Below, piece by piece: positions 3,793 to 23,628 of a stretch of 23,630 nucleotides of DNA. Below the pieces are notes generated by a model. It had not been told where the DNA came from, did not search any database, and saw nothing but the letters and a program-made list of their open reading frames with translations. Position numbers and translations under genes: made by a program. Source of the DNA: a virus; IMG/VR virus record IMGVR_UViG_3300034166_000567, positions 1 to 23,630 of that record; one strand, given 5' to 3'. Numbering within the stretch: the stretch's first letter is position 1; every line of letters begins with the position of its first letter.

Positions 3793-4335
3793 CTATGTTC
3801 TTGTAAATATTTGAAGGGAGATCCGAAGCCTTCCCTTGTTCACAGGGGTTGTATAGTGTTGTTCATTATTGTCGTTATAGACTAACAATCCCTGAGAAGG
3901 AACTAACACTTTCCACTCTTTGGCATCCTTATCCAAATAGTTAAAGGTTCCACCATCCTCAAGTGACCATTGAGGGTTAACATAAGATGTAAACACCTTC
4001 CTATCTGTTTGAGCAAAGCCATCACTATGCAATGGTATGTATGATCCTGGAGTCCATAAGTAAACCATTATCTGCAAAGCCTCATCTGCACTAGCAACAT
4101 TTAACTCTATAAACTCTTCTTTTATTTTTTGAATAATCTCATCAGGTGGAAAATAGATTATCACTGGAGAACTGTCTTTGACAATTTGAGGATCCCAAGA
4201 GGCATTGGTCTTTGTGGTGATAGGGTTTGGAAATCCAAGGGGATGTAAATCTTTGACTCCATAATAGTAGGATGTAGCCCAATCAAATATATCTGAACAT
4301 AACTCTTTACTTAGCCCATTGTCAAAGATTTTCAC
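3793..4335 (-). CDS. 2-oxoglutarate/Fe(II)-dependent oxygenase (180 aa)
   Basis: Likely iron- and 2-oxoglutarate-dependent hydroxylase of the prolyl-4-hydroxylase type. The iron ligands are visible as His103-x-Asp105 (HSD) and His160, and Arg169 or Arg171 is the likely 2-oxoglutarate anchor (RLRIS). The region before the second His has the usual hydrophobic strands. It starts at GTG 4335, exactly 6 nt after TATACT, so it is leaderless. It ends against the third DnaA box. The substrate is unknown. It is more diverged than the other oxygenases here and lacks their NDDYDGG signature. Confidence 0.8.
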   Translation of the reverse strand: MKIFDNGLSKELCSDIFDWATSYYYGVKDLHPLGFPNPITTKTNASWDPQIVKDSSPVIIYFPPDEIIQKIKEEFIELNVASADEALQIMVYLWTPGSYIPLHSDGFAQTDRKVFTSYVNPQWSLEDGGTFNYLDKDAKEWKVLVPSQGLLVYNDNNEQHYTTPVNKGRLRISLQIFTRT

Positions 4336-4372
4336 ATAAAAAGTATAGCACAGGATATGCTATTATAGACAT

Positions 4373-4936
4373 ATGGAATATAAGCCAAACACAAAGGTTA
4401 AGAATCCAACTTCAGAGTATTCTCTGGTAACAGTTCCTAGGACAGGCTCTCACTATCTTCAAGATAGAATTGAGCAGCACACAGGGGTATATGTCAAGAA
4501 ATATCATCATCTACAAGATAACAAAATGATAACGATAGTAAGAGACCCAGTAGACTTTATATCCTCTTATGTGGCTATGGACGCTCTATACTATGAGGGA
4601 AGTCTTGAGAGGTTTCTAGCCGAACCAGAGAAGTACTGCTTTGGTGACTGGTTTGGTCAAAATGATATAGCCCTCGTTGACAGATTTGATATTATAGTAA
4701 AGTATGAGTCTTTGACAGATTCACCACTTGAAACAATAACAAAGATAGCAGAAAAAATGTCACTTGAGATAATTGAACCCAGATACAAGAGCAATGTCAC
4801 AGACATGCCACATAGGAATTATTTAGCATCTAGTAAAAATTTCAAAGAGTACGACAGAATAAGAAAAATAGTCGAACAACAAGACCTTACAAGGACATAT
4901 CAGATTTACCATAAGTTCTTGACTAAGGCTATCTAA
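4373..4936 (+). CDS. Short sulfotransferase-like protein (187 aa)
   Basis: Two signatures of PAPS-dependent sulfotransferases are present: a 5'-phosphosulfate loop PRTGSHYL (22-29) and a 3'-phosphate motif VRDPVDFISS (56-65). A KYESL segment downstream also fits the family. At 187 aa it is shorter than typical members (about 250-300 aa), so the acceptor-binding part is reduced. TATTAT lies 6 nt before the ATG, divergent from the oxygenase at 3793-4335. It probably transfers sulfate to a sugar, peptide or small molecule. A second copy is at 8469-8984. Confidence 0.8.
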   Translation: MEYKPNTKVKNPTSEYSLVTVPRTGSHYLQDRIEQHTGVYVKKYHHLQDNKMITIVRDPVDFISSYVAMDALYYEGSLERFLAEPEKYCFGDWFGQNDIALVDRFDIIVKYESLTDSPLETITKIAEKMSLEIIEPRYKSNVTDMPHRNYLASSKNFKEYDRIRKIVEQQDLTRTYQIYHKFLTKAI

Positions 4937-4946
4937 CTGCTATAAT
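4919..4946 (+). promoter_or_regulatory. Promoter of a micro-membrane protein
   Basis: TTGACT (4919-4924), a 16-nt spacer and TATAAT (4941-4946), 6 nt before the ATG at 4953. The -35 overlaps the end of the sulfotransferase gene. Confidence 0.65.
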
Positions 4947-4952
4947 TAAACC

Positions 4953-5039
4953 ATGAAACCTTTTCTCATTATGATGCTTGGCCTATTCATCTTTCTAAAC
5001 TATATGGCCTATCTACAACAAATCCGTATGGGTGGATAA
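4953..5039 (+). CDS. 28-aa membrane micro-protein
   Basis: A short frame behind its own strong leaderless promoter. The product is almost one hydrophobic helix (FLIMMLGLFIFLNYMAYL) with a short polar tail (QQIRMGG), so it is probably a single-pass inner-membrane peptide. It could be a toxin-like or superinfection-exclusion peptide; nothing in the sequence decides this. Confidence 0.6.
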   Translation: MKPFLIMMLGLFIFLNYMAYLQQIRMGG

Positions 5040-5057
5040 AACCACGGCAAATAAAGA

Positions 5058-5372
5058 TTACGAACACTCCTTTATAGCCCTATTGACCATATGGATCAAA
5101 CCTCTTCGAGTTATCTTAGATGCATCAAATGTCTCCGTATAACCCCCTTGTGGCATATCTGCCTTAGTTAGATAGTGTCCATGCTTATTGGTGAGTGTTC
5201 TTACTACTAGGGTTTCTACTGATCTTGCTTTATCCCGTTCGGAAAACCACCAATACTTAATCAATATCCAACCTTTGGTCCTATGGCTTGCAAACCTTCT
5301 TCCGCTTACATCTGATATACCTATTTTGACAGCCTTATACACAGGACTGTATAGTATATATAATAGGGTCAT
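5058..5372 (-). CDS. GIY-YIG-like nuclease (T5orf172/MUG113 type, 104 aa)
   Basis: The N-terminal LLYILYSP then VKIGIS fits the variant GIY-YIG core of the T5orf172/MUG113 families, followed by a conserved Arg (26), a His (29) and the helix RDKARSVET with the candidate catalytic Glu. Such domains occur in phages as stand-alone, often homing-like, nucleases. It starts 6 nt after TATAAT on the - strand, so it is leaderless, and is divergent from 5421. Other functions cannot be excluded. Confidence 0.6.
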   Translation of the reverse strand: MTLLYILYSPVYKAVKIGISDVSGRRFASHRTKGWILIKYWWFSERDKARSVETLVVRTLTNKHGHYLTKADMPQGGYTETFDASKITRRGLIHMVNRAIKECS

Positions 5373-5378
5373 TAGTCT

Positions 5379-5414
5379 ATTATACTTGACTTCCCCCGCA
5401 ATTTCTGATATGAT
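5379..5414. promoter_or_regulatory. Compact divergent promoters
   Basis: On the + strand TTGACT (5386-5391), 17 nt and TATGAT (5409-5414) stand 6 nt before the ATG at 5421. On the - strand TATAAT (5384-5379) stands 6 nt before the ATG at 5372. The - strand -10 box is 1 bp from the + strand -35 box, so two polymerases could hardly bind at once. Confidence 0.65.
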
Positions 5415-6023: not shown

Positions 6024-6038
6024 TGGTATAATAGTTAT

Positions 6039-6653
6039 ATGTCATATGCCATCAACAACAAGCCAGTAGGAAATAATCCTGACTCAATCGAAAGAACTGA
6101 GTCATATCACAAATTTTTAAATAAATTAGGAAACTCTGCAGAAAACATTATAACTATTCCTAATTTTTTAACACAAGAAGAAATATCTTATCTTATGGAT
6201 GGTCTAGAAGATAGACACTCTCACCGTTTTGTTTCTCAAAAAGGTCCTAATGGAGAGCCATTAACCTACATGCGTAAGTATGATGGTCTGCCAGATAAGT
6301 CCAATCTTATAGGCAGAGTTAAAGATGAAATAAAAAAAGCATACAACTTAGAAGATATTGAGATAGCAGAAAAAGAAGAATTCTTGGGCGTTGTTCACTG
6401 GGAGACTGGATCTTACTTAAACACACATGTGGATGACCTTGGATATGTAACAGAAAACCACTTACCAATTATTATTTATTTAAATGATAACTATGAGGGT
6501 GGAGAGATTAAGTTTGAAACACATGATGTTTGTATTAAGCCAAAGACTGGTGACTTAGTCGTATTCCCTGGGAATATGCACTACGCTCATGAAGTTAAAG
6601 AGGTTTTATCTGGTGATAGATACACTCTGCCTATTTGGTTTACGGTAGTTTAA
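6039..6653 (+). CDS. Prolyl-4-hydroxylase-like 2OG-Fe(II) oxygenase (204 aa)
   Basis: Leaderless start 6 nt after TATAAT (6027-6032). The iron triad is His130-x-Asp132 (HVD) and His184 (HEV), and Arg194 is the likely 2-oxoglutarate anchor. Between them are the family's hallmark strands: YLNDNYEGGEIKF, then KPKTGDLVVFPG. These match the C-terminal domain of the fusion at 6899-8326. First of a three-gene unit (6039-8326). The substrate is unknown; phage members of this type are often suspected of modifying proteins or small molecules. Confidence 0.9.
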   Translation: MSYAINNKPVGNNPDSIERTESYHKFLNKLGNSAENIITIPNFLTQEEISYLMDGLEDRHSHRFVSQKGPNGEPLTYMRKYDGLPDKSNLIGRVKDEIKKAYNLEDIEIAEKEEFLGVVHWETGSYLNTHVDDLGYVTENHLPIIIYLNDNYEGGEIKFETHDVCIKPKTGDLVVFPGNMHYAHEVKEVLSGDRYTLPIWFTVV

Positions 6654-6654
6654 A

Positions 6655-6906
6655 ATGACAGATGACATGAAAAAAAGAAAACTTCTAGATGGTTCTGAGG
6701 TCAATGATTACGATTATCCAATTGATTTAATTTTGCATACAAAAGCACCAGGTAAGTGGAAGTTGATTGACCTTGAAACAGGACAAGAATATCTTGGATC
6801 AGACGTATCTCATGAAACATTTGGAGAACTTTTAAGAAGCAAAGTTGCAAAGGCTAAGATAGGTTCTTGGTTTAAAACAAAGGGAAGAGTAATAAAAAAT
6901 GGATAA
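6655..6906 (+). CDS. Small conserved-looking protein between two oxygenases (83 aa)
   Basis: It starts 1 nt after the upstream stop and overlaps the downstream gene by 8 nt, so it is co-translated with both oxygenases. The middle has DYDYPIDLILHTK and WKLIDLETGQEY, which look like beta strands, and the C terminus is basic (KVAKAKIGSWFKTKGR). It could be a substrate-carrier or accessory protein. No family recognised. Confidence 0.75.
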   Translation: MTDDMKKRKLLDGSEVNDYDYPIDLILHTKAPGKWKLIDLETGQEYLGSDVSHETFGELLRSKVAKAKIGSWFKTKGRVIKNG

Positions 6907-8326
6907 TACCAATAAGCCTATAACATTTCACTGGATGTGGAGAAGACACTGGCAGATAAACGATAGCATTGAGAACCTAGACCTTAAGGGAATTCTTTCT
7001 ATGGCACAAGAACTAGATGGTGCTAACGTTAAATCTGTTTTACTTCCCTATGGCCCAGGAGGTATTGATTTTTCATTAGTTATACAAGAAGCATTACAAA
7101 AAACAAATCAACTGATTATGACAATTGCCCTGCCAGCATATGGAACAAGTCCTGACTATGCTGCTAAGATTGTTGACACGTTAAATAAGTTTGCACCTGG
7201 AAGAATTGGCGTAAACCTAGTTTCTGGAAGATGGGGTGATGAAGGAAACGACAAGTCTGAGAAGATAGTTATAGACCACTATATGCACGACCCTTCACTT
7301 ATTGACACTCTTGCAAAAAGGGTTGCCATCTCTGCAGTTTGGATGGACAAATTTATGAATTTAATGAGTGCCCATGAGCACAAAACCCACATGGCAGTTG
7401 TTGGCTCTTCAGATACAACAATTGGTATAGCAAACAAACATTGCGAATATATATATGTTGATGACAACCTATTGTTTAAGGACCAGTTTAAAAAGATTGA
7501 TCTGGATAAGGTAAAGCCAATAGTCATTATTGACCCACTTATTACTACCCATCCAGACGATGAAAAGCATGTTAAGTATGACAAGAATGCACCAGTTAGA
7601 CAACAAAACCACTTAATAAAAGGAAAGTTAGTCGATGTTGTTGCACAAATAAGAAACCTGTCTGAGAAGTTTGGCATTTATGACTTTATGATTCATACTG
7701 ATCAAGAAGATATTAGCAAGTTGCTAGATATGGTAAAAAACTTTAATGATATTGTAGTGCCTGAAGGAAATGTAATAGGTTACTCTGACCTAACGGTACA
7801 AAACTTTAATAATATCGGAAGTGATCCTAGAAATGTAAAAGTATTTAATAATTATTTAAGCAAAGAAGAATGTGACCATATTATAGGACTTATAAATAAT
7901 ACAGAGACAAGTAATAATCGTCCCTTGCAACCAGACGATTCTGGAAATCCTACACTGTCTTTATTATATTACGATTCACTCAGGTATTCAGAAAGATATA
8001 TCCCTGGTATTCAGTCTATCGTAGAAAAAGAATTTAATGTAAAACTAAAACCAAGAAATTCTCGTTTTGCTCAATGGGTTCATAATAATAGTCAAACTAT
8101 TCCAATAGATGATATGGGTCATAAAGACTCAAACCATTTAGCAGGATGGGTTTATTTGAATGATGACTACGATGGTGGTGGTTTGTCATTTTTTAATCAA
8201 GGACTATCCCTTAAGCCAAAGGCTGGTGATCTAATTCTATTCCCTGGGAATCCTCATTATTGGTACCATGTTGGCCCAGCAAATGGCTCAAGATACATTA
8301 TGCCAATATGGTTTGATTTTGTTTAA
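6899..8326 (+). CDS. Luciferase-like monooxygenase fused to a 2OG-Fe(II) oxygenase (475 aa)
   Basis: Residues 1 to about 290 look like a flavin-dependent luciferase-like monooxygenase (TIM barrel) related to the SsuD/alkanesulfonate group: FHWMWRRHWQIND at the N terminus, LLPYGPGGIDFSLVIQEAL, and GRIGVNLVSGRWGDEG followed by an aromatic DHYMHDP region. Residues from about 310 form a prolyl-4-hydroxylase-like domain: His408-x-Asp410 (HKD), WVYLNDDYDGGGLSFF, KPKAGDLILFPG, His457, Arg465. One continuous frame spans both halves. It would use reduced flavin and O2 in one half and 2-oxoglutarate, Fe(II) and O2 in the other, perhaps oxidising one substrate twice. The combination is unfamiliar to me. 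It overlaps its upstream partner by 8 nt. Confidence 0.82.
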   Translation: MDNTNKPITFHWMWRRHWQINDSIENLDLKGILSMAQELDGANVKSVLLPYGPGGIDFSLVIQEALQKTNQLIMTIALPAYGTSPDYAAKIVDTLNKFAPGRIGVNLVSGRWGDEGNDKSEKIVIDHYMHDPSLIDTLAKRVAISAVWMDKFMNLMSAHEHKTHMAVVGSSDTTIGIANKHCEYIYVDDNLLFKDQFKKIDLDKVKPIVIIDPLITTHPDDEKHVKYDKNAPVRQQNHLIKGKLVDVVAQIRNLSEKFGIYDFMIHTDQEDISKLLDMVKNFNDIVVPEGNVIGYSDLTVQNFNNIGSDPRNVKVFNNYLSKEECDHIIGLINNTETSNNRPLQPDDSGNPTLSLLYYDSLRYSERYIPGIQSIVEKEFNVKLKPRNSRFAQWVHNNSQTIPIDDMGHKDSNHLAGWVYLNDDYDGGGLSFFNQGLSLKPKAGDLILFPGNPHYWYHVGPANGSRYIMPIWFDFV

Positions 8327-8329
8327 TGG

Positions 8330-8335
8330 TATAAT
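8330..8335 (+). promoter_or_regulatory. -10 box for 8342
   Basis: TATAAT 6 nt before the ATG at 8342, in the gap after the fusion gene. No convincing -35 is seen. Confidence 0.5.
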
Positions 8336-8468: not shown

Positions 8469-8984
8469 ATGTCAAATATAGTAATTGTTACATATCCTAG
8501 ATCTGGGGCAAACTACCTGTCAAATTTGCTACTAAATAACTGTAGGAAAGATATAAAATATTTTCATATTCCAGAGAAGCCTGATAGGTTTATTATAACT
8601 GTTGTACGAGATCCTTTTGAATCTATTCACTCTCATGTGACCATGAGAAAGCATTATCACCCAGATGAAGATTATAGCAAAAGATACAATAACGAGTATC
8701 GGGATATGTGTAACTTTTTATATAAAAATGCAGACATTGTTATTAAGTATGAAGATCTGGTAGAATTTCCAGAGAAAGTATTATCAAGGATTTGCAGTGA
8801 TCTTAACTTTGATATAGATCCATTAGACATCCCTGTGCCTATAACAGAAGACAATAAAGAAAACACATATTTAAGATCAAGCAAAATCTCTCAAAAGTAT
8901 AATGAAAAGCATTTTGATATAAATGATATAGAGGATTGTTATGGTCCATATACAAAACTATTATCAAAAAGAATTGATCTGTGA
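8469..8984 (+). CDS. Short sulfotransferase-like protein (171 aa)
   Basis: The 5'-phosphosulfate loop is YPRSGANYLSNLL (9-21), and the 3'-phosphate motif is VRDPFESIHSH (46-56). A KYEDLVEFPEKVL segment follows, as in cytosolic and bacterial sulfotransferases. At 171 aa it is near the minimum for the fold. It lies between the oxygenase unit and an SGNH hydrolase gene, which suggests a shared modification pathway. It shares layout with 4373-4936 but is well diverged from it. The acceptor is unknown. Confidence 0.82.
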   Translation: MSNIVIVTYPRSGANYLSNLLLNNCRKDIKYFHIPEKPDRFIITVVRDPFESIHSHVTMRKHYHPDEDYSKRYNNEYRDMCNFLYKNADIVIKYEDLVEFPEKVLSRICSDLNFDIDPLDIPVPITEDNKENTYLRSSKISQKYNEKHFDINDIEDCYGPYTKLLSKRIDL

Positions 8985-8996
8985 CAGAGTTCTAAG

Positions 8997-10001
8997 ATGT
9001 ATTTAACAGAAGACATTCTACATTTTTATAAAAATAACAGCAAAAATAGTAGATACCTAAATAAATATTTTACAGGTACGGGCCATGTGGGACGATATGA
9101 TTCATATCAGGTGGGAGTTGTTGATAATAAATCAAACGAAAATGCTTTTATATCTACAGTTGATGAGGACAACACATATGAAATCAATGAAATTGGTCTT
9201 CGTGGAGAAGTTTATAAAGATGCAGATTTTTTAGCCTCTGGTTGCTCTATAACTTTTGGTATTGGTGTTCCAGAAAATGGAAGATGGACGAACATTTTAA
9301 ATGATAAAATCAATAAGAATGTTATGAATCTAGGAAACCCTGGAGCATCCGTACGAACTATTTGTCATAATACTATTCGATATTGTATGAATAACAAAAT
9401 GCCAAAAGAAATTTTTTGTTTAATGCCAGATTTTTTTAGAAGTATGGTTGTAGTAGATAAAGAATTTTATAAATCAAAAGTCAATAGAGGAGACCTTAAA
9501 GAGTCTGAGATTTTAGAACTAACCTACTGTAGTCCTAGCCTTATGTATTATGAAAATCATATTTTTATGCAAATAAAAGATCAAAAATATATAGAAGACT
9601 CGACTTCCCCACACCAATTAATTTTAGATGCTATAGATGATATTTATATCTTAGAATCATTTTGTTTATCAAATAATATAAAATTATATTGGACAACTTG
9701 GCATAGGCCGAGTTCTTTAATTATGGAAGAATTAGTAAAGTTAAAAGACTTCAAATTAAAAAATTTTTTACCTTTTATAATGTTTAGCAAATCAGATAGT
9801 TTTAGAGATAATATAGAGAAACATTGTGATTTATTTCACGAATCTGAATTTAAGGATCATTTGTGCTGGTCAAAAGGATCTGACTATTCTGTTATAAATT
9901 ATAAAAAAGCGCCAAAAGAATATCACCCAGGAATTCATTTTCATCAGCATGTGGCAGATTTTTTTTATAGCCGATATAGTCAAAATAATACAATAGTTTG
10001 A
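8997..10001 (+). CDS. SGNH/GDSL hydrolase-like protein, copy 1 (334 aa)
   Basis: Block I is SGCSITFG with the candidate nucleophile Ser84, preceded by INEIGLRG, a common lead-in of SGNH domains. Block II is NLGNPGAS (Gly113). The C-terminal HPGIHFHQH (310-318) probably supplies the catalytic His. Such enzymes are esterases or acyltransferases acting on acetylated sugars or lipids. There is no signal peptide, so it should act in the cytoplasm or on the virion. It has close paralogues at 11376 and 13635 and shares a 102-bp identical stretch with 11376. Very AT-rich. Confidence 0.78.
   Translation: MYLTEDILHFYKNNSKNSRYLNKYFTGTGHVGRYDSYQVGVVDNKSNENAFISTVDEDNTYEINEIGLRGEVYKDADFLASGCSITFGIGVPENGRWTNILNDKINKNVMNLGNPGASVRTICHNTIRYCMNNKMPKEIFCLMPDFFRSMVVVDKEFYKSKVNRGDLKESEILELTYCSPSLMYYENHIFMQIKDQKYIEDSTSPHQLILDAIDDIYILESFCLSNNIKLYWTTWHRPSSLIMEELVKLKDFKLKNFLPFIMFSKSDSFRDNIEKHCDLFHESEFKDHLCWSKGSDYSVINYKKAPKEYHPGIHFHQHVADFFYSRYSQNNTIV
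9393..9494 (+). repeat. 102-bp exact repeat, copy A
   Basis: Base-for-base identical to 11778-11879, including all synonymous positions, while the flanking coding sequence differs at many sites. It encodes the same 34 residues in both SGNH genes. Confidence 0.92.
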
Positions 10002-11375: not shown

Positions 11376-12389
11376 ATGAAATTTTTAACAAGAGATATTT
11401 TAAGTTTTTATAAATCAAATTACGAAAACAGTTGGTATTTAAAAAAGTTTTTTTCAAATACAAAAGAGGTTGGGCTGCATAAGCCATTTCGTAAAGATAT
11501 TGTGAGTTCTCAGCGTAATTTTAAAGACAATGTTGTGGAAACAATTGATGAAGTCAATACATATGAAACAAATTCTATTGGTTGCAGAGGAAAGATTGAT
11601 GAAGATTCAGAAATCTTTGCATCTGGTTGCTCCATAACCTTTGGTCTTGGTGTTCCAGAATTCGGAATGTGGACAGAATTACTAGGAAAAAAAATTAACA
11701 AAAGTGTCACAAACTTGGGCAGTCCTGGAGCCTCAGTAGAAAGCATTTGTACTAATATTATTCAATATTGTATGACCAACAAAATGCCAAAAGAAATTTT
11801 TTGTTTAATGCCAGATTTTTTTAGAAGTATGGTTGTAGTAGATAAAGAATTTTATAAATCAAAAGTCAATAGAGGAGACATGGGAACAAGAGATAGCCTA
11901 GAATATATATACTCTAACCCAACTATAGTTAAAGATAATAGATCATTTTTTATGGAAGTAGAAAATCAAAAATATATAGAAGATTATACTTCTCCACATC
12001 AATTAATTCTAAATTCCTTAAACCTTATCTATATTTTAGAATCATTTTGTTTATCAAACAACATAAAACTATATTGGACAACTTGGCACTCACCAAGTTC
12101 TTATATTTTAGACGAATTAAGCAAAATGGAAAATTTTAAATTAAAAAATTTTACATCTTTATACTCTCCTAGCCTATATTATAATAAGGGCCTTGGTGAA
12201 CTAGTAGACTCTGTTTGTAGTCCTCATACCCATGAACACGAGTTTAAAAATCATCCATCTTGGAATATAGGTTCTGATTATGCTTTTATAAATGGAGAAA
12301 AAACATTTAAAAATACTCACCCAGGGATACACATTCAAGAGCACATTGCAGATTTTTTTTACAATTTATATAATGATAAAGATAAATAA
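11376..12389 (+). CDS. SGNH/GDSL hydrolase-like protein, copy 2 (337 aa)
   Basis: Same architecture as copy 1: block I SGCSITFG with Ser86, block II NLGSPGAS, and HPGIHIQEH (315-323) near the C terminus. It is very similar to copy 1 over most of its length and less so to copy 3. The divergence is uneven: one 102-bp block is identical to copy 1. The gene has its own TATAAT and no Shine-Dalgarno sequence. Its likely role is esterase or acyltransferase on a sugar or lipid; the substrate is unknown. Confidence 0.78.
   Translation: MKFLTRDILSFYKSNYENSWYLKKFFSNTKEVGLHKPFRKDIVSSQRNFKDNVVETIDEVNTYETNSIGCRGKIDEDSEIFASGCSITFGLGVPEFGMWTELLGKKINKSVTNLGSPGASVESICTNIIQYCMTNKMPKEIFCLMPDFFRSMVVVDKEFYKSKVNRGDMGTRDSLEYIYSNPTIVKDNRSFFMEVENQKYIEDYTSPHQLILNSLNLIYILESFCLSNNIKLYWTTWHSPSSYILDELSKMENFKLKNFTSLYSPSLYYNKGLGELVDSVCSPHTHEHEFKNHPSWNIGSDYAFINGEKTFKNTHPGIHIQEHIADFFYNLYNDKDK
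11778..11879 (+). repeat. 102-bp exact repeat, copy B
   Basis: Identical to 9393-9494. The boundaries fall inside coding sequence at the same codon positions of both SGNH genes, as expected of gene conversion or recent recombination. Confidence 0.92.
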
Positions 12390-13382: not shown

Positions 13383-13457
13383 GCACCAGTAGCCAAGTTG
13401 GTTAAGGCACCGAACTCATAATTCGGCTATTCGTAGGTTCAAGTCCTACCTGGTGTA
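13383..13457 (+). tRNA. tRNA with anticodon CAT (Met or Ile2)
   Basis: Acceptor GCACCAG pairs with CTGGTGT (13450-13456) with one G-T pair. The anticodon stem CCGAA/TTCGG encloses CTCATAA, giving CAT. The T arm has the TTCAAGT loop. It could be elongator Met, or Ile with C34 changed to lysidine; sequence alone does not decide. CCA is not encoded. Confidence 0.9.
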
Positions 13458-13461
13458 CAAA

Positions 13462-13535
13462 GCGAGTGTTGCATAATGGTAGTGCACCATCCTTCCAAGT
13501 TGGTAGTGCCAGTTCGATTCTGGTCACTCGCTCCA
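13462..13535 (+). tRNA. tRNA-Gly (anticodon TCC)
   Basis: Acceptor GCGAGTG pairs with CACTCGC (13525-13531). The anticodon loop CTTCCAA gives TCC, and one T-T mismatch is visible in the anticodon stem. The T loop is TTCGATT. CCA is encoded at 13533-13535. Confidence 0.9.
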
Positions 13536-13536
13536 T

Positions 13537-13609
13537 ACCTCTGTAGTTCAGTGGACAGAACGATGGACTTCTAAGCCATGCGTCGCAAGTTCGATTCTTG
13601 CCAGGGGTA
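13537..13609 (+). tRNA. tRNA-Arg (anticodon TCT)
   Basis: Acceptor ACCTCTG pairs with CAGGGGT (13602-13608). The anticodon loop CTTCTAA gives TCT, reading AGA, a codon common in the AT-rich genes here. The pair closing the anticodon loop is A-G. The T loop is TTCGATT. Confidence 0.88.
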
Positions 13610-13622
13610 CACAACAAGATGA

Positions 13623-13634: not shown

Positions 13635-14669
13635 ATGGATTTATCGAATAAAAATATTTTAAATGTTTATGAAAATTATCAAAAAAGTAATTACATACTT
13701 AATAATTTTACAGACACACAACAACTCTCTTGTTTTTTACCAAACCAGGACAACCCATTTGATCTTAAAGGATTTTATAGTCCTGTAAATCAAGTCGACG
13801 AAGTCAATGATTATACAATTAATGAGTTGGGATTTCGTGGTAACTTAAAAAAAGATGCTAAAATTATTGCTGTAGGATGTTCTTACACCTTTGGTGTTGG
13901 GGTGCCAGAAAGCGGAACTTGGCCAAGTATTTTAAGTTCAGAAATAAACCAAGATGTTTTGAATTTAGGGGTTCCTGGTATTACAATAAGACAAGCATCT
14001 GAATTAATAGTTAAATATGTTTCAAAATATAATAAACCAAAAACTATTTTTGCGCTATTTCCTCCATTTTTTAGAACTAGTTTAATATCAGATGCAGATT
14101 TTTATTATAACACCAAAAGTATAGATCCAAGGAAACAAGAAGAAAGGGATCGGCAGATTTCTTTTAAACCTTTGATCGTTTATAATCGTACTAGAAAAGA
14201 AATGTTTTTTAAAAAACAAAATTATTCTCTTTTTTTTAATTCAAAAGAAAAAAGTTTACCTTACATGGAAAATGTTTTTTCACCACATCAGTTGATATCT
14301 GACTCTATTGAGTCAATATCACTAATACAAAATTTTTGTTATTCACATGGAATAGACTTTTATTGGTCAACATGGGACAATGCAAGTTCTGCGTTAATGG
14401 ATGTTTTAGTTAAAATTCCTAATTTTAAACTAAAAAATTATATAAAGTTTGCTGATGATGAGTTTGATAACTATCACACAGACGATGGCAAATTTCCAAC
14501 TAGTTTTTGTAATTTATCACATAATTCTAAACTTGTTGATCATCCTTCTTGGGAACAAGGTTCTGATGTTGTTTATAGTTATGATAAAATACTTAATTTC
14601 TCACCACATCCTGGAATTCATTTTCAACACCACGTAGCAGAATTATTTAAGGGGTACTCTACTTTTTAG
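13635..14669 (+). CDS. SGNH/GDSL hydrolase-like protein, copy 3 (344 aa)
   Basis: The most diverged of the three SGNH paralogues. INELGFRG precedes block I GCSYTFG (Ser83), block II is NLGVPGIT, and HPGIHFQHH (325-333) lies near the C terminus. Conserved mid-region features with the other copies are SPHQL and the W(S/T)TW motif. Leaderless, directly after the tRNA cluster. Its last 11 bases overlap the convergent gene at 14659-14787. Confidence 0.77.
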   Translation: MDLSNKNILNVYENYQKSNYILNNFTDTQQLSCFLPNQDNPFDLKGFYSPVNQVDEVNDYTINELGFRGNLKKDAKIIAVGCSYTFGVGVPESGTWPSILSSEINQDVLNLGVPGITIRQASELIVKYVSKYNKPKTIFALFPPFFRTSLISDADFYYNTKSIDPRKQEERDRQISFKPLIVYNRTRKEMFFKKQNYSLFFNSKEKSLPYMENVFSPHQLISDSIESISLIQNFCYSHGIDFYWSTWDNASSALMDVLVKIPNFKLKNYIKFADDEFDNYHTDDGKFPTSFCNLSHNSKLVDHPSWEQGSDVVYSYDKILNFSPHPGIHFQHHVAELFKGYSTF

Positions 14670-19133: not shown

Positions 19134-19286
19134 TTACTTTGTTAGTTCTGTATAATGATTTATACAGACATCTCTAATCTGTGTTTCGGTTGCATATAAT
19201 TTTTCTGCTTCAAGTTTACAATCTAGCACATGACAATAATAAAAAGCAATGTGCTCTAGATCTTCGTATGACTTAAAAGTTATCAT
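19134..19286 (-). CDS. 50-aa hypothetical protein
   Basis: Starts in an ATGA overlap with the oxygenase gene upstream and ends just before the holin-like gene's ribosome binding site. Contains three Cys and several His (YYCHVLDCK, CINHY), possibly metal-binding. No family recognised. Confidence 0.62.
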   Translation of the reverse strand: MITFKSYEDLEHIAFYYCHVLDCKLEAEKLYATETQIRDVCINHYTELTK

Positions 19287-19837
19287 CTGACTAAACCTAG
19301 TGCTGGTCTTTGCACACTGGATCCAGCATACTTAAACCATTGAGTAGCAGAATACCTTTCTTTTAAAGTATTTTCAAGCACCTCATGCCAGTAGTCTGAA
19401 TTGCTAGGGAAGGTAATAAAACTGTTAGACTTTGGCTTAATCTTTAGGTTATGATCCATAAAGTTTATTTCTCCTCCATCATAATCATCGTTAAGATAGT
19501 ATATAACTGCAAAATCTCCTGCGGTATCTGCATGCTCGTTCATTTTATAATTTTTTTCAAATTTAACTAAAGGCGTTCTTTCATTTTCAAAAGAATAAAG
19601 TTCTACATTGTAGGAGTCTATACATTTTTGATAAGCAAGCATAAAAACCTTATCCAGAATTTTAGAAATTTCTTTTGGCATTTTTTCTGGTGAAAATGTT
19701 TGAACTCCCCAAGGCTGAACATTCCAAGAATCTATATTAATAGCATAGTCAAGTAGTTGCTTATGCTCTTCTTTAGATAAAACATTTTCTGTGATTTTTA
19801 TATTGTCTACAGAGTTTCCTAAGTTTTTATTTGTCAT
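19283..19837 (-). CDS. Prolyl-4-hydroxylase-like 2OG-Fe(II) oxygenase (184 aa)
   Basis: Iron triad His102-x-Asp104 (HAD) and His151 (HEV), with Arg161 as 2-oxoglutarate anchor. YYLNDDYDGGEINF and KPKSNSFITFPS are the family strands. Leaderless, with a TATAAT that doubles as the last codons (Tyr-Asn-stop) of the oxygenase gene just upstream. It is a tandem paralogue of that gene: both begin with a GNS-x-DNI segment and share the QPW motif. Confidence 0.88.
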   Translation of the reverse strand: MTNKNLGNSVDNIKITENVLSKEEHKQLLDYAINIDSWNVQPWGVQTFSPEKMPKEISKILDKVFMLAYQKCIDSYNVELYSFENERTPLVKFEKNYKMNEHADTAGDFAVIYYLNDDYDGGEINFMDHNLKIKPKSNSFITFPSNSDYWHEVLENTLKERYSATQWFKYAGSSVQRPALGLVR

Positions 19838-19840
19838 ATA

Positions 19841-20443
19841 TTAATTATACCATTCTGCTTTTTTGTTAAAACTGGAGCCAGTAAATTGAAACCACATGGC
19901 TGAACTATATCTGTCATTGTCTACAATTTCAAGCACTTCGTGCAAATAATTTTCATTTCCAGGGAAAATTATTAAACTATTAGGTTTTGGTTTAATTTGT
20001 AACTTATGGTCTGGGAAGTTGATTTCTCCACCAGTATAGTCGTCGTTAATATAATATACTGAAGCAATATGATTACCCTCAGACGAAAGGGTGTCCACAT
20101 GAGGATCTAAAGAAAAACCCTTTACAAACTTAACCAGATGTATTGCAGACTTATGAAAAGGATTAATATCCACATTATAAAGTTCTACAGACTTTTTATA
20201 AACAAGTTGAAATACTTTATTTAGTGTTGTGAGAATTTCTTCAGGCAAACTTTCTGATTCAATAGTTATGGCTTCCCATGGTTGCTTTTCCCAAGATCTG
20301 GCATTTTTTACGTAATTAAGAAGATTTGTGTGCTCTTCTTCGGACAAAACTTTTTCTATATACTGTATATTGTCTGTAGAGTTTCCTATTTTTGCAACAT
20401 TTGCTAAATATATCTCATCTTTTTCTGAAGGACTTTTAATCAT
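19841..20443 (-). CDS. Prolyl-4-hydroxylase-like 2OG-Fe(II) oxygenase (200 aa)
   Basis: Iron triad His115-x-Asp117 (HVD) and His168 (HEV), anchor Arg178, family strands YYINDDYTGGEINF and KPKPNSLIIFPG. TAGAAT lies 6 nt before the ATG, and the start overlaps the upstream stop (ATGA). It is a paralogue of the downstream neighbour, with an extra N-terminal segment of about 14 residues. Confidence 0.88.
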   Translation of the reverse strand: MIKSPSEKDEIYLANVAKIGNSTDNIQYIEKVLSEEEHTNLLNYVKNARSWEKQPWEAITIESESLPEEILTTLNKVFQLVYKKSVELYNVDINPFHKSAIHLVKFVKGFSLDPHVDTLSSEGNHIASVYYINDDYTGGEINFPDHKLQIKPKPNSLIIFPGNENYLHEVLEIVDNDRYSSAMWFQFTGSSFNKKAEWYN

Positions 20444-21084: not shown

Positions 21085-21356
21085 TTACTCCATTGTTAAC
21101 GACTGCCAAGTTTTTCCCCAGTCAGTCTTACTCTTGTGGCTAGAAAACTCTTTAGAGACTTCTCCATTTTCCAAGTATACACCACCCCAAACTCCCCATT
21201 CTTTCCCAGATATTCCTACAGAAAAGCACTCTTTTCTTACAGAACAATTAGAACACATTAGGTCTACTGCAGGTCTTAGAAGTTCATCTTCTTCGTACTT
21301 GTCAAAGAATACATTTGTGTCATAGTCCAAGCATGCAGCATCATCTTTTCACTCAT
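21085..21356 (-). pseudogene. WhiB-like transcription factor, apparently frameshifted
   Basis: The main frame shows the WhiB hallmarks: CSNCSVRKEC and GVWGG, with FFDKYEED before them. The first iron-sulfur Cys (AAC, encoded at 21333-21331) is in frame upstream, but no usable start precedes it: a TGA lies seven codons before the TTG at 21330. The only good ATG (21356) begins MSEK in another frame. One extra A in the AAAA run at 21349-21346 would join them as MSEKDDAACLDYD. So this is a sequencing indel, a programmed -1 slip at A-AAG, or a real mutation. WhiB proteins bind a 4Fe-4S cluster and steer sigma factor activity. Confidence 0.7.
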
Positions 21357-22654: not shown

Positions 22655-23221
22655 TTAATAGGATATTTCTTTTTCTTTTATGTTCGTTGCCCAAATAGGC
22701 ATTGACATTCTTACACCAGATAAAACCTCAGTGATCTTGTGTACCTCTGTAGACTCAAAAATAACAAGACTTAACCTTTTTGGCTTAATTGTAAGATTTC
22801 TATGTGGAAAATTTAAATATCCTCCATCAAAATCTTCATTTAAATAAATAATCCCGCTTCTAAATAAATGCTCTGCCCCCTTATGGTTGTCTGCATGCTC
22901 CGTAAGAATGCTTTCTGGTCCCAACATTAGCATAAAAAGTGATGCTAGGTATATCTCTTCACTATCTTTAAAAAAAAGATTACACTCTAGTAAAAATTTA
23001 TCAGAGTATTTTTTTAATAAATGTAGTACTTCTGAGTGATCTGAGAATGTGTTTCGTTCTGGTATGTGTGACTCATACCTTACCTTATTCTCAATTCTAT
23101 GTCTTAGGGGTACATAAAATTTGTTTTTATCTAAACAGTTATTTTTTATATAACTTACAAGTGTGTCGGCATCTTCTAAAGTTATAAAATTTTCTACTAC
23201 ATTTATTTTAAAATCTGTCAT
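22655..23221 (-). CDS. Prolyl-4-hydroxylase-like 2OG-Fe(II) oxygenase (188 aa)
   Basis: Counted from the ATG at 23221: His109-x-Asp111 (HAD), YLNEDFDGGYLNFP, KPKRLSLVIFES, His161 (VHKI) and Arg171 give a complete triad plus 2-oxoglutarate anchor. A GTG one codon earlier is also possible. The start overlaps the stop of the nuclease gene, so the two are coupled. The substrate is unknown. Confidence 0.88.
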   Translation of the reverse strand: MTDFKINVVENFITLEDADTLVSYIKNNCLDKNKFYVPLRHRIENKVRYESHIPERNTFSDHSEVLHLLKKYSDKFLLECNLFFKDSEEIYLASLFMLMLGPESILTEHADNHKGAEHLFRSGIIYLNEDFDGGYLNFPHRNLTIKPKRLSLVIFESTEVHKITEVLSGVRMSMPIWATNIKEKEISY

Positions 23222-23628
23222 CACTTTCCAGACTTTGCTCTGGCCTTCTTCAAAGCGTCAAAATCTTTGACCTTTGTTTCTCCCATGTATCCCCAAGCAT
23301 GTCCATCATTGATCATCTTATCATTAATAGAAACGGTGTCTCCATCAAGATAAACCCAACCAAGAATACGACCAAACTTTTCAGACGAGTTCATCTTCTC
23401 TGTCTTAATAACTACAGACTTAGCACTCTCAATGGCAGCCTTCAAATAAGCCTTTGCTTCCAGCCCTAAAGCCTTTTCAGCCTTGTCTGCTGTACGAGAC
23501 TCAGGTGTATCAATTCCAGCCAGTCTGACTCTTGAACTAAAAGAAATGTCAAACCCTAAATCAATATCGACATCAATGGTATCTCCATCAACGACCTTTG
23601 TTACTTTCTTTACATAATATTCAAACAT
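23221..23628 (-). CDS. Staphylococcal nuclease-like (thermonuclease) protein (135 aa)
   Basis: The three core motifs of the SNc fold are present: VVDGDTIDVDI, VRLAGIDTPESRT (catalytic Arg and Asp/Glu region) and FGRILGWVYL. A calcium-dependent DNA/RNA endonuclease is expected. There is no signal peptide, so it acts inside the cell, perhaps on host DNA. The gene is complete and begins 3 nt from the window edge; its promoter is outside. Confidence 0.88.
   Translation of the reverse strand: MFEYYVKKVTKVVDGDTIDVDIDLGFDISFSSRVRLAGIDTPESRTADKAEKALGLEAKAYLKAAIESAKSVVIKTEKMNSSEKFGRILGWVYLDGDTVSINDKMINDGHAWGYMGETKVKDFDALKKARAKSGK

Follow-up and report, generated by a model that had tools for sequence, protein, structure and literature searches.

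Luciferase-like (LLM) enzymes and 2OG oxygenases are each common, and members of both groups resemble parts of the phage gene described here. Among the former, SsuD and MsuD, group C two-component flavin monooxygenases, share with the phage LLM domain the TIM barrel (N-terminal two thirds), the GSS phosphate loop, the His and Arg of the phosphate site and the Asn and Val of the O2 pocket. In contrast to these enzymes, to which it is about 25-30% identical over part of its length only, the phage domain is about 100 aa shorter, has lost most of the lid and the sulfonate-binding residues, is fused to a 2OG fold and comes from a phage where no reductase was seen. The top structural match, kvPepI, is an F420H2-dependent ketone reductase of pepstatin biosynthesis (PMC12081711), with a compact LLM barrel like that of the phage domain at 13% identity. 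Phage LLM proteins per se are not new, since the BFVD holds examples of about 250 aa; two from uncultured Caudovirales, named 'Luciferase-like domain containing protein' (A0A6J7WN64 and A0A6J7WQ01), show the same compact fold (TM 0.72-0.81 by target), but these are of about 250 aa, 16-19% identical and unfused. With regard to the 2OG side, the P4H-like oxygenases (PF13640; PBCV-1 vCPH, Pseudomonas P4H) have in common with the fused domain the fold and the 2OG arginine, whereas the HxD...H motif is missing from every copy of the fused domain, and the gene upstream has all the defining residues. A fusion of LLM and 2OG domains, in phages or elsewhere, was not described in the open-access literature searched, in keeping with the suspicion of a previous sequence-only reading of this DNA that the architecture was undescribed in phages.

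The window, as we call the whole stretch of DNA analysed (23,630 nucleotides of IMG/VR virus record IMGVR_UViG_3300034166_000567), carries such a fusion at 6899-8326 (Table 1). Our best explanation, which we hold tentatively and with somewhat less than even confidence, is that 6039-8326 would constitute a phage modification cassette, in which an iron hydroxylase and a flavin enzyme are coupled via a metal-less 2OG adaptor.

Table 1. Features of the cassette and its surroundings (window positions, except for the split copies, which are given by relative).
Feature	Position	Strand	Evidence
-10-like TATAAT, probably a (near-)leaderless promoter driving the three genes	6027..6032	+	6 nt before the first ATG
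Upstream P4H-like Fe(II)/2OG oxygenase, triad intact (HVD...H...R)	6039..6653	+	PF13640 3.8e-13
Small conserved 83-aa protein	6655..6906	+	phrog_4098 4.5e-8; tblastn to T4-like phages
LLM-pseudo2OG fusion gene, 475 aa	6899..8326	+	frame reading, homologue scans, alignment
LLM TIM-barrel domain, residues 1-284	6899..7750	+	NCBIfam SsuD models, PDB profile search, hhalign, AlphaFold/Foldseek; stand-alone 283-aa ORF in L209, L203, L182 and others
Linker, residues 285-301	7751..7801	+	alignment: length and sequence vary; stop/start falls here in split relatives
Pseudo-2OG domain (2OG-oxygenase fold without iron triad), residues 302-475	7802..8323	+	Pfam, alignments
Pro402-Ile403-Asp404, position of the HxD metal motif	8102..8110	+	alignment with intact paralogues in the window
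Tyr456, position of the second metal His	8264..8266	+	alignments
Arg465, position of the 2OG-binding Arg	8291..8293	+	kept in 73/73 distinct C-domains
TATAAT just past the fusion stop, probably the start of the next transcript	8330..8335	+	sequence
Sulfotransferase-like protein, usual next neighbour	8469..8984	+	PF13469 3.6e-8
GDSL/SGNH-like motif protein (GCSITFGIG)	8997..10001	+	motif and neighbour clusters; SGNH name inferred
Split copies	L209:4001-5408, L203:4001-5408, L182:2886-4290; also L207, L210, L196, L279, L280, L330		adjacent LLM and pseudo-2OG genes

Fused and split forms of the gene

The frame runs for 475 codons with zero internal stops. A first scan of viral contigs gave 132 close relatives, the closest 80 of which were fetched, all of them full length; further scans brought the total to 77 distinct LLM versions, comprising 65 fused, eight split and four cut by a contig end. 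As the 65 intact fused versions come from many metagenome data sets, the fusion is not an artefact of assembly or frameshift. The claim that a single frame joins an LLM-like and a 2OG-fold half was thus borne out, and the search for such fusions in viral metagenomes that had been proposed along with it was productive. Rough dN/dS values are about 0.09 for the LLM domain and about 0.14 for the C-domain (dS near 1), and among 57 distinct sequences the LLM domain is the better conserved of the two. The cassette is under strong conservation, hence matters to infection, and is carried by many actinobacterial phages.

The eight distinct split relatives keep LLM and pseudo-2OG as neighbouring separate genes in an unchanged order. 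In these copies the first frame ends at residue 283 (TTTAAY-TAA) and, in those whose junction was read (TTTAAY-TAA-TATG), an ATG one base past the stop opens a pseudo-2OG gene of 183-184 aa, the two genes of L209 occupying 4001-4852 (LLM) and 4854-5408 (pseudo-2OG); an AAGGAG-like ribosome site lies inside the end of the LLM frame. In the LLM tree the split copies fall, with weak support, in at least two places, so that at least two changes of state are needed, and the identical junction in both places suggests that the splitting is old. Since split and fused forms keep the same gene order, the two domains are probably coupled in function, whichever direction the fusion or fission went. The fused and split versions, together with a graded loss of the metal triad described below, offer a natural experiment on the retention of the 2OG fold.

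The luciferase-like domain

Three separate routes agree in placing the N-domain within the predicted LLM fold. By sequence models, the SsuD profiles of NCBIfam match the N-domain in 24/24 relatives scanned, the match in the protein of the window covering residues 28-128 only and reaching 28 bits against curated cut-offs of 510-518, and the score with the Pfam Bac_luciferase model falls under the cut-off of that model. By profile comparison, SsuD and MsuD rank first in a PDB profile search (4e-5), and a profile-profile alignment (hhalign) against SsuD plus four plasmid LLM proteins covers residues 24-183 with a single-comparison P of 1.3e-10. By structure prediction, an AlphaFold model (mean pLDDT 77) has eight strand/helix repeats and retrieves LLM enzymes from the PDB with Foldseek at E about 1e-12 (best 7e-13), in the order kvPepI, MsuD, SsuD and SfnG, the short barrel of kvPepI being the best-fitting (TM 0.69-0.71 by target). 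Residues 1 to about 290 had initially been taken as luciferase-like, and the TIM-barrel match obtained here substantiates it. No close relative that could indicate the origin of the phage domain appeared in a scan of bacterial genomes, and plasmids gave only ordinary LLM enzymes with 23-35% identity.

To look into the active site, the residues of the FMN/O2 pocket and of the sulfonate site (W195, R225, R296 and the RGGA loop) listed for MsuD (PMC8234197) were transferred, keeping that numbering, by alignment to E. coli SsuD. Nine of the 13 FMN/O2 residues examined are identical: L46, A75, N104 and V106 of the O2 pocket, G108 at the ribityl chain, and H123, R126, S177 and S178 of the phosphate site. 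T49, R77 and Y127 are replaced by Tyr, Pro and Val, respectively, and L193 lies outside the alignment. The residues at the top of the barrel and at the phosphate site are invariant or nearly so among the 57 distinct sequences. Most of the usual lid region is absent. Of the sulfonate residues, W195 corresponds to Y186 in the alignment to SsuD, and nothing matches R225, R296 or the RGGA loop. Because the flavin residues are mostly kept and the sulfonate ones are gone, the domain probably still binds a flavin-type cofactor, either FMN or F420, and is not an alkanesulfonate monooxygenase. Flavin reductases of the PF01613 and PF03358 families are missing from nine long relatives, so reduced flavin would need a host source.

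The loss of the sulfonate residues speaks against the sulfur-containing substrate formerly suggested, and likewise makes it extremely improbable that the LLM domain scavenges sulfur for the phage or its host, with sulfonates as the source of released sulfite and the sulfotransferases as further users of the sulfur. SsuD and MsuD being the nearest solved sequences, and the sulfotransferases lying close by, are the points in favour of such a role; neither a flavin reductase nor a sulfonate transporter was seen near the cassette. The neighbouring sulfotransferases may still sulfate something.

The same barrel could instead be a reductase or dehydrogenase dependent on F420 or flavin, not a monooxygenase, and take as substrate what the upstream hydroxylase produces. 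The first rank of an F420H2-dependent enzyme, kvPepI, in the structural search is in line with this idea, as are the absence of the lid and of several FMN contacts, and actinobacteria, the phylum of the probable host, include F420 users. The retention of L46, A75, N104 and V106 in the O2 pocket and the preference of the sequence models for SsuD argue for oxygen chemistry instead, and we regard a reductase as unlikely.

A 2OG-oxygenase fold without its iron ligands

The C-domain matches PF13640 with 27.6 bits, just over the curated cut-off of 27, in an alignment that begins at residue 408, corresponding to position 24 of the 98 in the profile, and so leaves out the profile start. The metal positions were located by aligning the domain with the other five 2OG proteins of the window, which maps the HxD...H triad to Pro402-Ile403-Asp404 and Tyr456; an independent alignment to PiuC also puts the PiuC His on Y456. 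Over 73 distinct C-domains, counting fused and split copies, the residues found are P/S/R/A/Q/L/H at 402, D/N at 404 and Y/H at 456, in the combinations PDY (46), SDY (10), RDY (5), ADY (4), PNY (3), PNH (2), QDH (1), LDH (1) and HNH (1). A complete HDH triad occurs in none of the 73. In a few divergent fusions (L129, 1687-3159, and L307, L336, L337 and L340) the second metal His is present and another ligand is lost, and L336, L337 and L340 keep the first His too, which makes up a graded series of triad loss.

The sequence-only reading had described here a complete prolyl-4-hydroxylase-like domain, with His408, Asp410, His457 and Arg465 in its site. The fold (PF13640, residues 302-475) and the arginine, which is universal in our set, withstand this analysis, and the completeness does not, with the iron triad gone. 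In fact, the three proposed ligands lie six residues (first pair) and one residue (H457) after the homologous positions, and two of them are variable among the unique full-length fusions: position 408 is H/S/R/I, with H in 41/63, and position 457 is H/N/D/S/I, with H in 38/63. We consequently rejected them as metal ligands.

The strands of the double-stranded beta helix are present in the AlphaFold model of the domain. Its mean column identity is 0.81, with 0.88-0.89 in the strands that surround the old metal position versus 0.75 in the N-half. As these strands are the best-conserved part of the C-domain, its pocket is under selection. In all 73 sequences there is little or no variation at D405 and D410, and K409 and H413 do not vary within the main group of 70. 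These four are, with W417, Y456 and R465, the conserved residues lining the pocket region. Judging from these alignments, the C-domain is a conserved pseudo-oxygenase and not a product of simple decay, where the pocket may have acquired a new use or a metal may sit on other residues.

This last alternative bears on the original idea that both fused domains are active with different oxygen chemistry, so that one polypeptide performs two oxidations. The folds are the correct ones for it, the 2OG arginine is retained, and D405, D410 and the nearly always conserved H413 could hold a metal in another geometry. Against it, the first and last metal His are gone in nearly all copies, the full triad in every one, and the ligands that are missing differ between lineages (HNH, QDH, LDH, PNH, PDY), as would be expected if metal binding had been lost. 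With the iron facial triad missing from every C-domain, we consider two active domains very unlikely. As for the proposal of a two-step oxidation device, the step assigned to the fused 2OG half fails with its triad, and only the product of 6039-6653 could supply it.

That upstream enzyme shows the residues H-D-H-R in 60/60 distinct versions. They are likewise present in 30/36 of the other 2OG proteins of these contigs, and the remaining six have the pseudo-2OG pattern and are, according to a tree and to ORF maps, the C-halves of split copies. A PDB profile search with the upstream enzyme finds a bacterial P4H at 7e-9, and its structural model has prolyl 4-hydroxylases (algal, PBCV-1 and Pseudomonas P4H) as top Foldseek matches. 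From sequence and model, the product of 6039-6653 is most likely the working iron hydroxylase of the unit. A minor observation concerns annotation: phrog_2297 and phrog_274 are labelled 'DNA endonuclease (V)' though clear 2OG oxygenases match them (6039-6653 of the window at 4e-26), and a BFVD 'DNA endonuclease V' also came up as a 2OG-fold match, so that these labels look wrong.

The close relationship in fold between the pseudo-2OG domain and the upstream enzyme, along with the reduced lid of the LLM domain, would also fit a fusion without catalysis of its own, structural or regulatory, for instance a partner controlling the upstream oxygenase. Nevertheless, the near-invariant residues at the top of the barrel and at the phosphate site, and an LLM domain more conserved than the C-domain, are hard to reconcile with a barrel that does no chemistry, and we judge this role quite improbable.

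The three-gene unit, its neighbours and the host

The 83-aa gene starts 1 nt after the upstream 2OG gene and overlaps the fusion gene by 8 nt, which agrees with the co-translation of the three genes noted before. A -10-like hexamer stands before the first gene in 27/27 distinct relatives, compared with 10.5% for the ATGs of the window overall. Since the TATAAT that follows the fusion stop probably starts the next transcript, we take the three genes as one unit. Across the window, 16 of the 32 gene starts have a TATAAT-like hexamer 3-9 nt ahead of the start codon (against the same 10.5%), among them those at 767, 4373, 6039, 11376, 13635 and 18089 on the plus strand and at 4335, 5372, 16434, 19837 and 20443 on the minus strand; a test with fixed 7-nt spacing gave no excess of the hexamer, whereas one with variable spacing did. 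This suggests that leaderless transcripts with -10 promoters are widespread in the window.

Of the 80 fetched loci, 79 have the upstream 2OG gene next to the fusion and 66 the 83-aa gene; a sulfotransferase-like gene is nearby in 69 and a GDSL/SGNH-like motif protein in 60. The sulfotransferase following the fusion in the window had already been recognised and is upheld by its Pfam match. The 8997-10001 protein, for which Pfam gave zero matches, has paralogues at 11376-12389 and 13635-14669.

All of this is accommodated by the cassette that we tentatively favour. The separate P4H-like protein would act as the Fe(II)/2OG hydroxylase, and the fusion would bring a flavin-dependent LLM enzyme tied to an iron-free 2OG fold in which the pocket and the 2OG arginine are retained. 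The pseudo-2OG domain would serve as an adaptor, either docking the LLM domain onto the active 2OG enzyme or binding substrate or 2OG for it, and the two active sites would act in sequence on one target. This would probably be a side group of a glycan, lipid or protein, located on the virion or the surface of the host, and the sulfotransferase and SGNH-type proteins encoded close by may add further decorations to it. The proposal builds on fold, architecture, operon, triad loss, conservation and the coexistence of split and fused forms, to which it would add the activity of the LLM domain, physical docking, a shared substrate and the assembly. As counterpoints, sharing an operon alone proves no common substrate, and the LLM domain lacks most of the lid and several flavin contacts.

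It is also conceivable, if rather doubtful, that the proteins form a heteromeric redox machine, in which the active iron hydroxylase is paired to a flavin or F420 enzyme via a sister domain that lacks the metal and has its 2OG-type pocket put to a new use. If true, this would be the first described pseudo-2OG-oxygenase physically linking iron and flavin oxygen chemistry, with both fused and split forms in nature. Moreover, the cassette opens the question of why a 2OG fold persists once iron binding is gone, and its defined partner makes it an approachable case among the many 2OG oxygenases of aquatic phages without an assigned role.

Copies of the 83-aa protein share 63-90% identity among relatives, and its gene adjoins the LLM gene in 70/70 distinct copies from the fetched loci, which had been chosen as the closest. 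It is similar to the C-terminal ~50 aa of a GlmU-like protein found in T4-like phages and looks like a C-terminal phage domain encoded on its own; the GlmU-like proteins (L146 4510-6189, L147 2489-4177 and L212 986-2662) adjoin arabinose-5-phosphate isomerase genes. That the oxygenases might modify the 83-aa protein as a precursor peptide was also considered and is unlikely, since nearly all of its positions are conserved and there is no variable core. A role in defence or counter-defence was discarded as well, PADLOC having returned generic '2OG' models alone.

Regarding the host, a WhiB gene (PF02467) lies at 21085-21330 of the window and also occurs in 8/9 long relatives, whiB being a marker used for actinophages (PMC6802176, PMC10202952). 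In one relative, G001, which has a G+C content of 38%, a DnaE-like polymerase shares 52-55% identity with its counterparts in Streptomyces phages. The WhiB genes suggest an actinobacterial host, and a freshwater actinobacterium is likely. The class II ribonucleotide reductase was set aside as an indication of the host: its one match fell on a contig of 3.2 kb (L211, JAFMJX010000223.1) from a Chitinophagaceae MAG, which encodes a segment of the enzyme with 84% identity to the G001 version and is probably a stray phage contig.

Other features of these genomes deserve mention. Six 2OG-fold domains occur within the 23.6 kb of the window (3793-4335, 6039-6653, 7802-8323, 19283-19837, 19841-20443 and 22655-23224) along with two JmjC/cupin proteins (PF08007; 15793-16434 and 17434-18072), so that genes of the non-haem iron oxygenase type are densely packed in this phage. 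A cluster of three tRNAs (Met, Gly and Arg) is found at 13383-13610, between SGNH-like genes. Finally, a NodU/CmcH-type carbamoyltransferase (PF16861/PF02543) is encoded in the relative L138 (7558-8979; G001 47558-48982), and the same contig has, by eye, glycosyltransferase- and epimerase-like genes, which are further signs of glycan tailoring.
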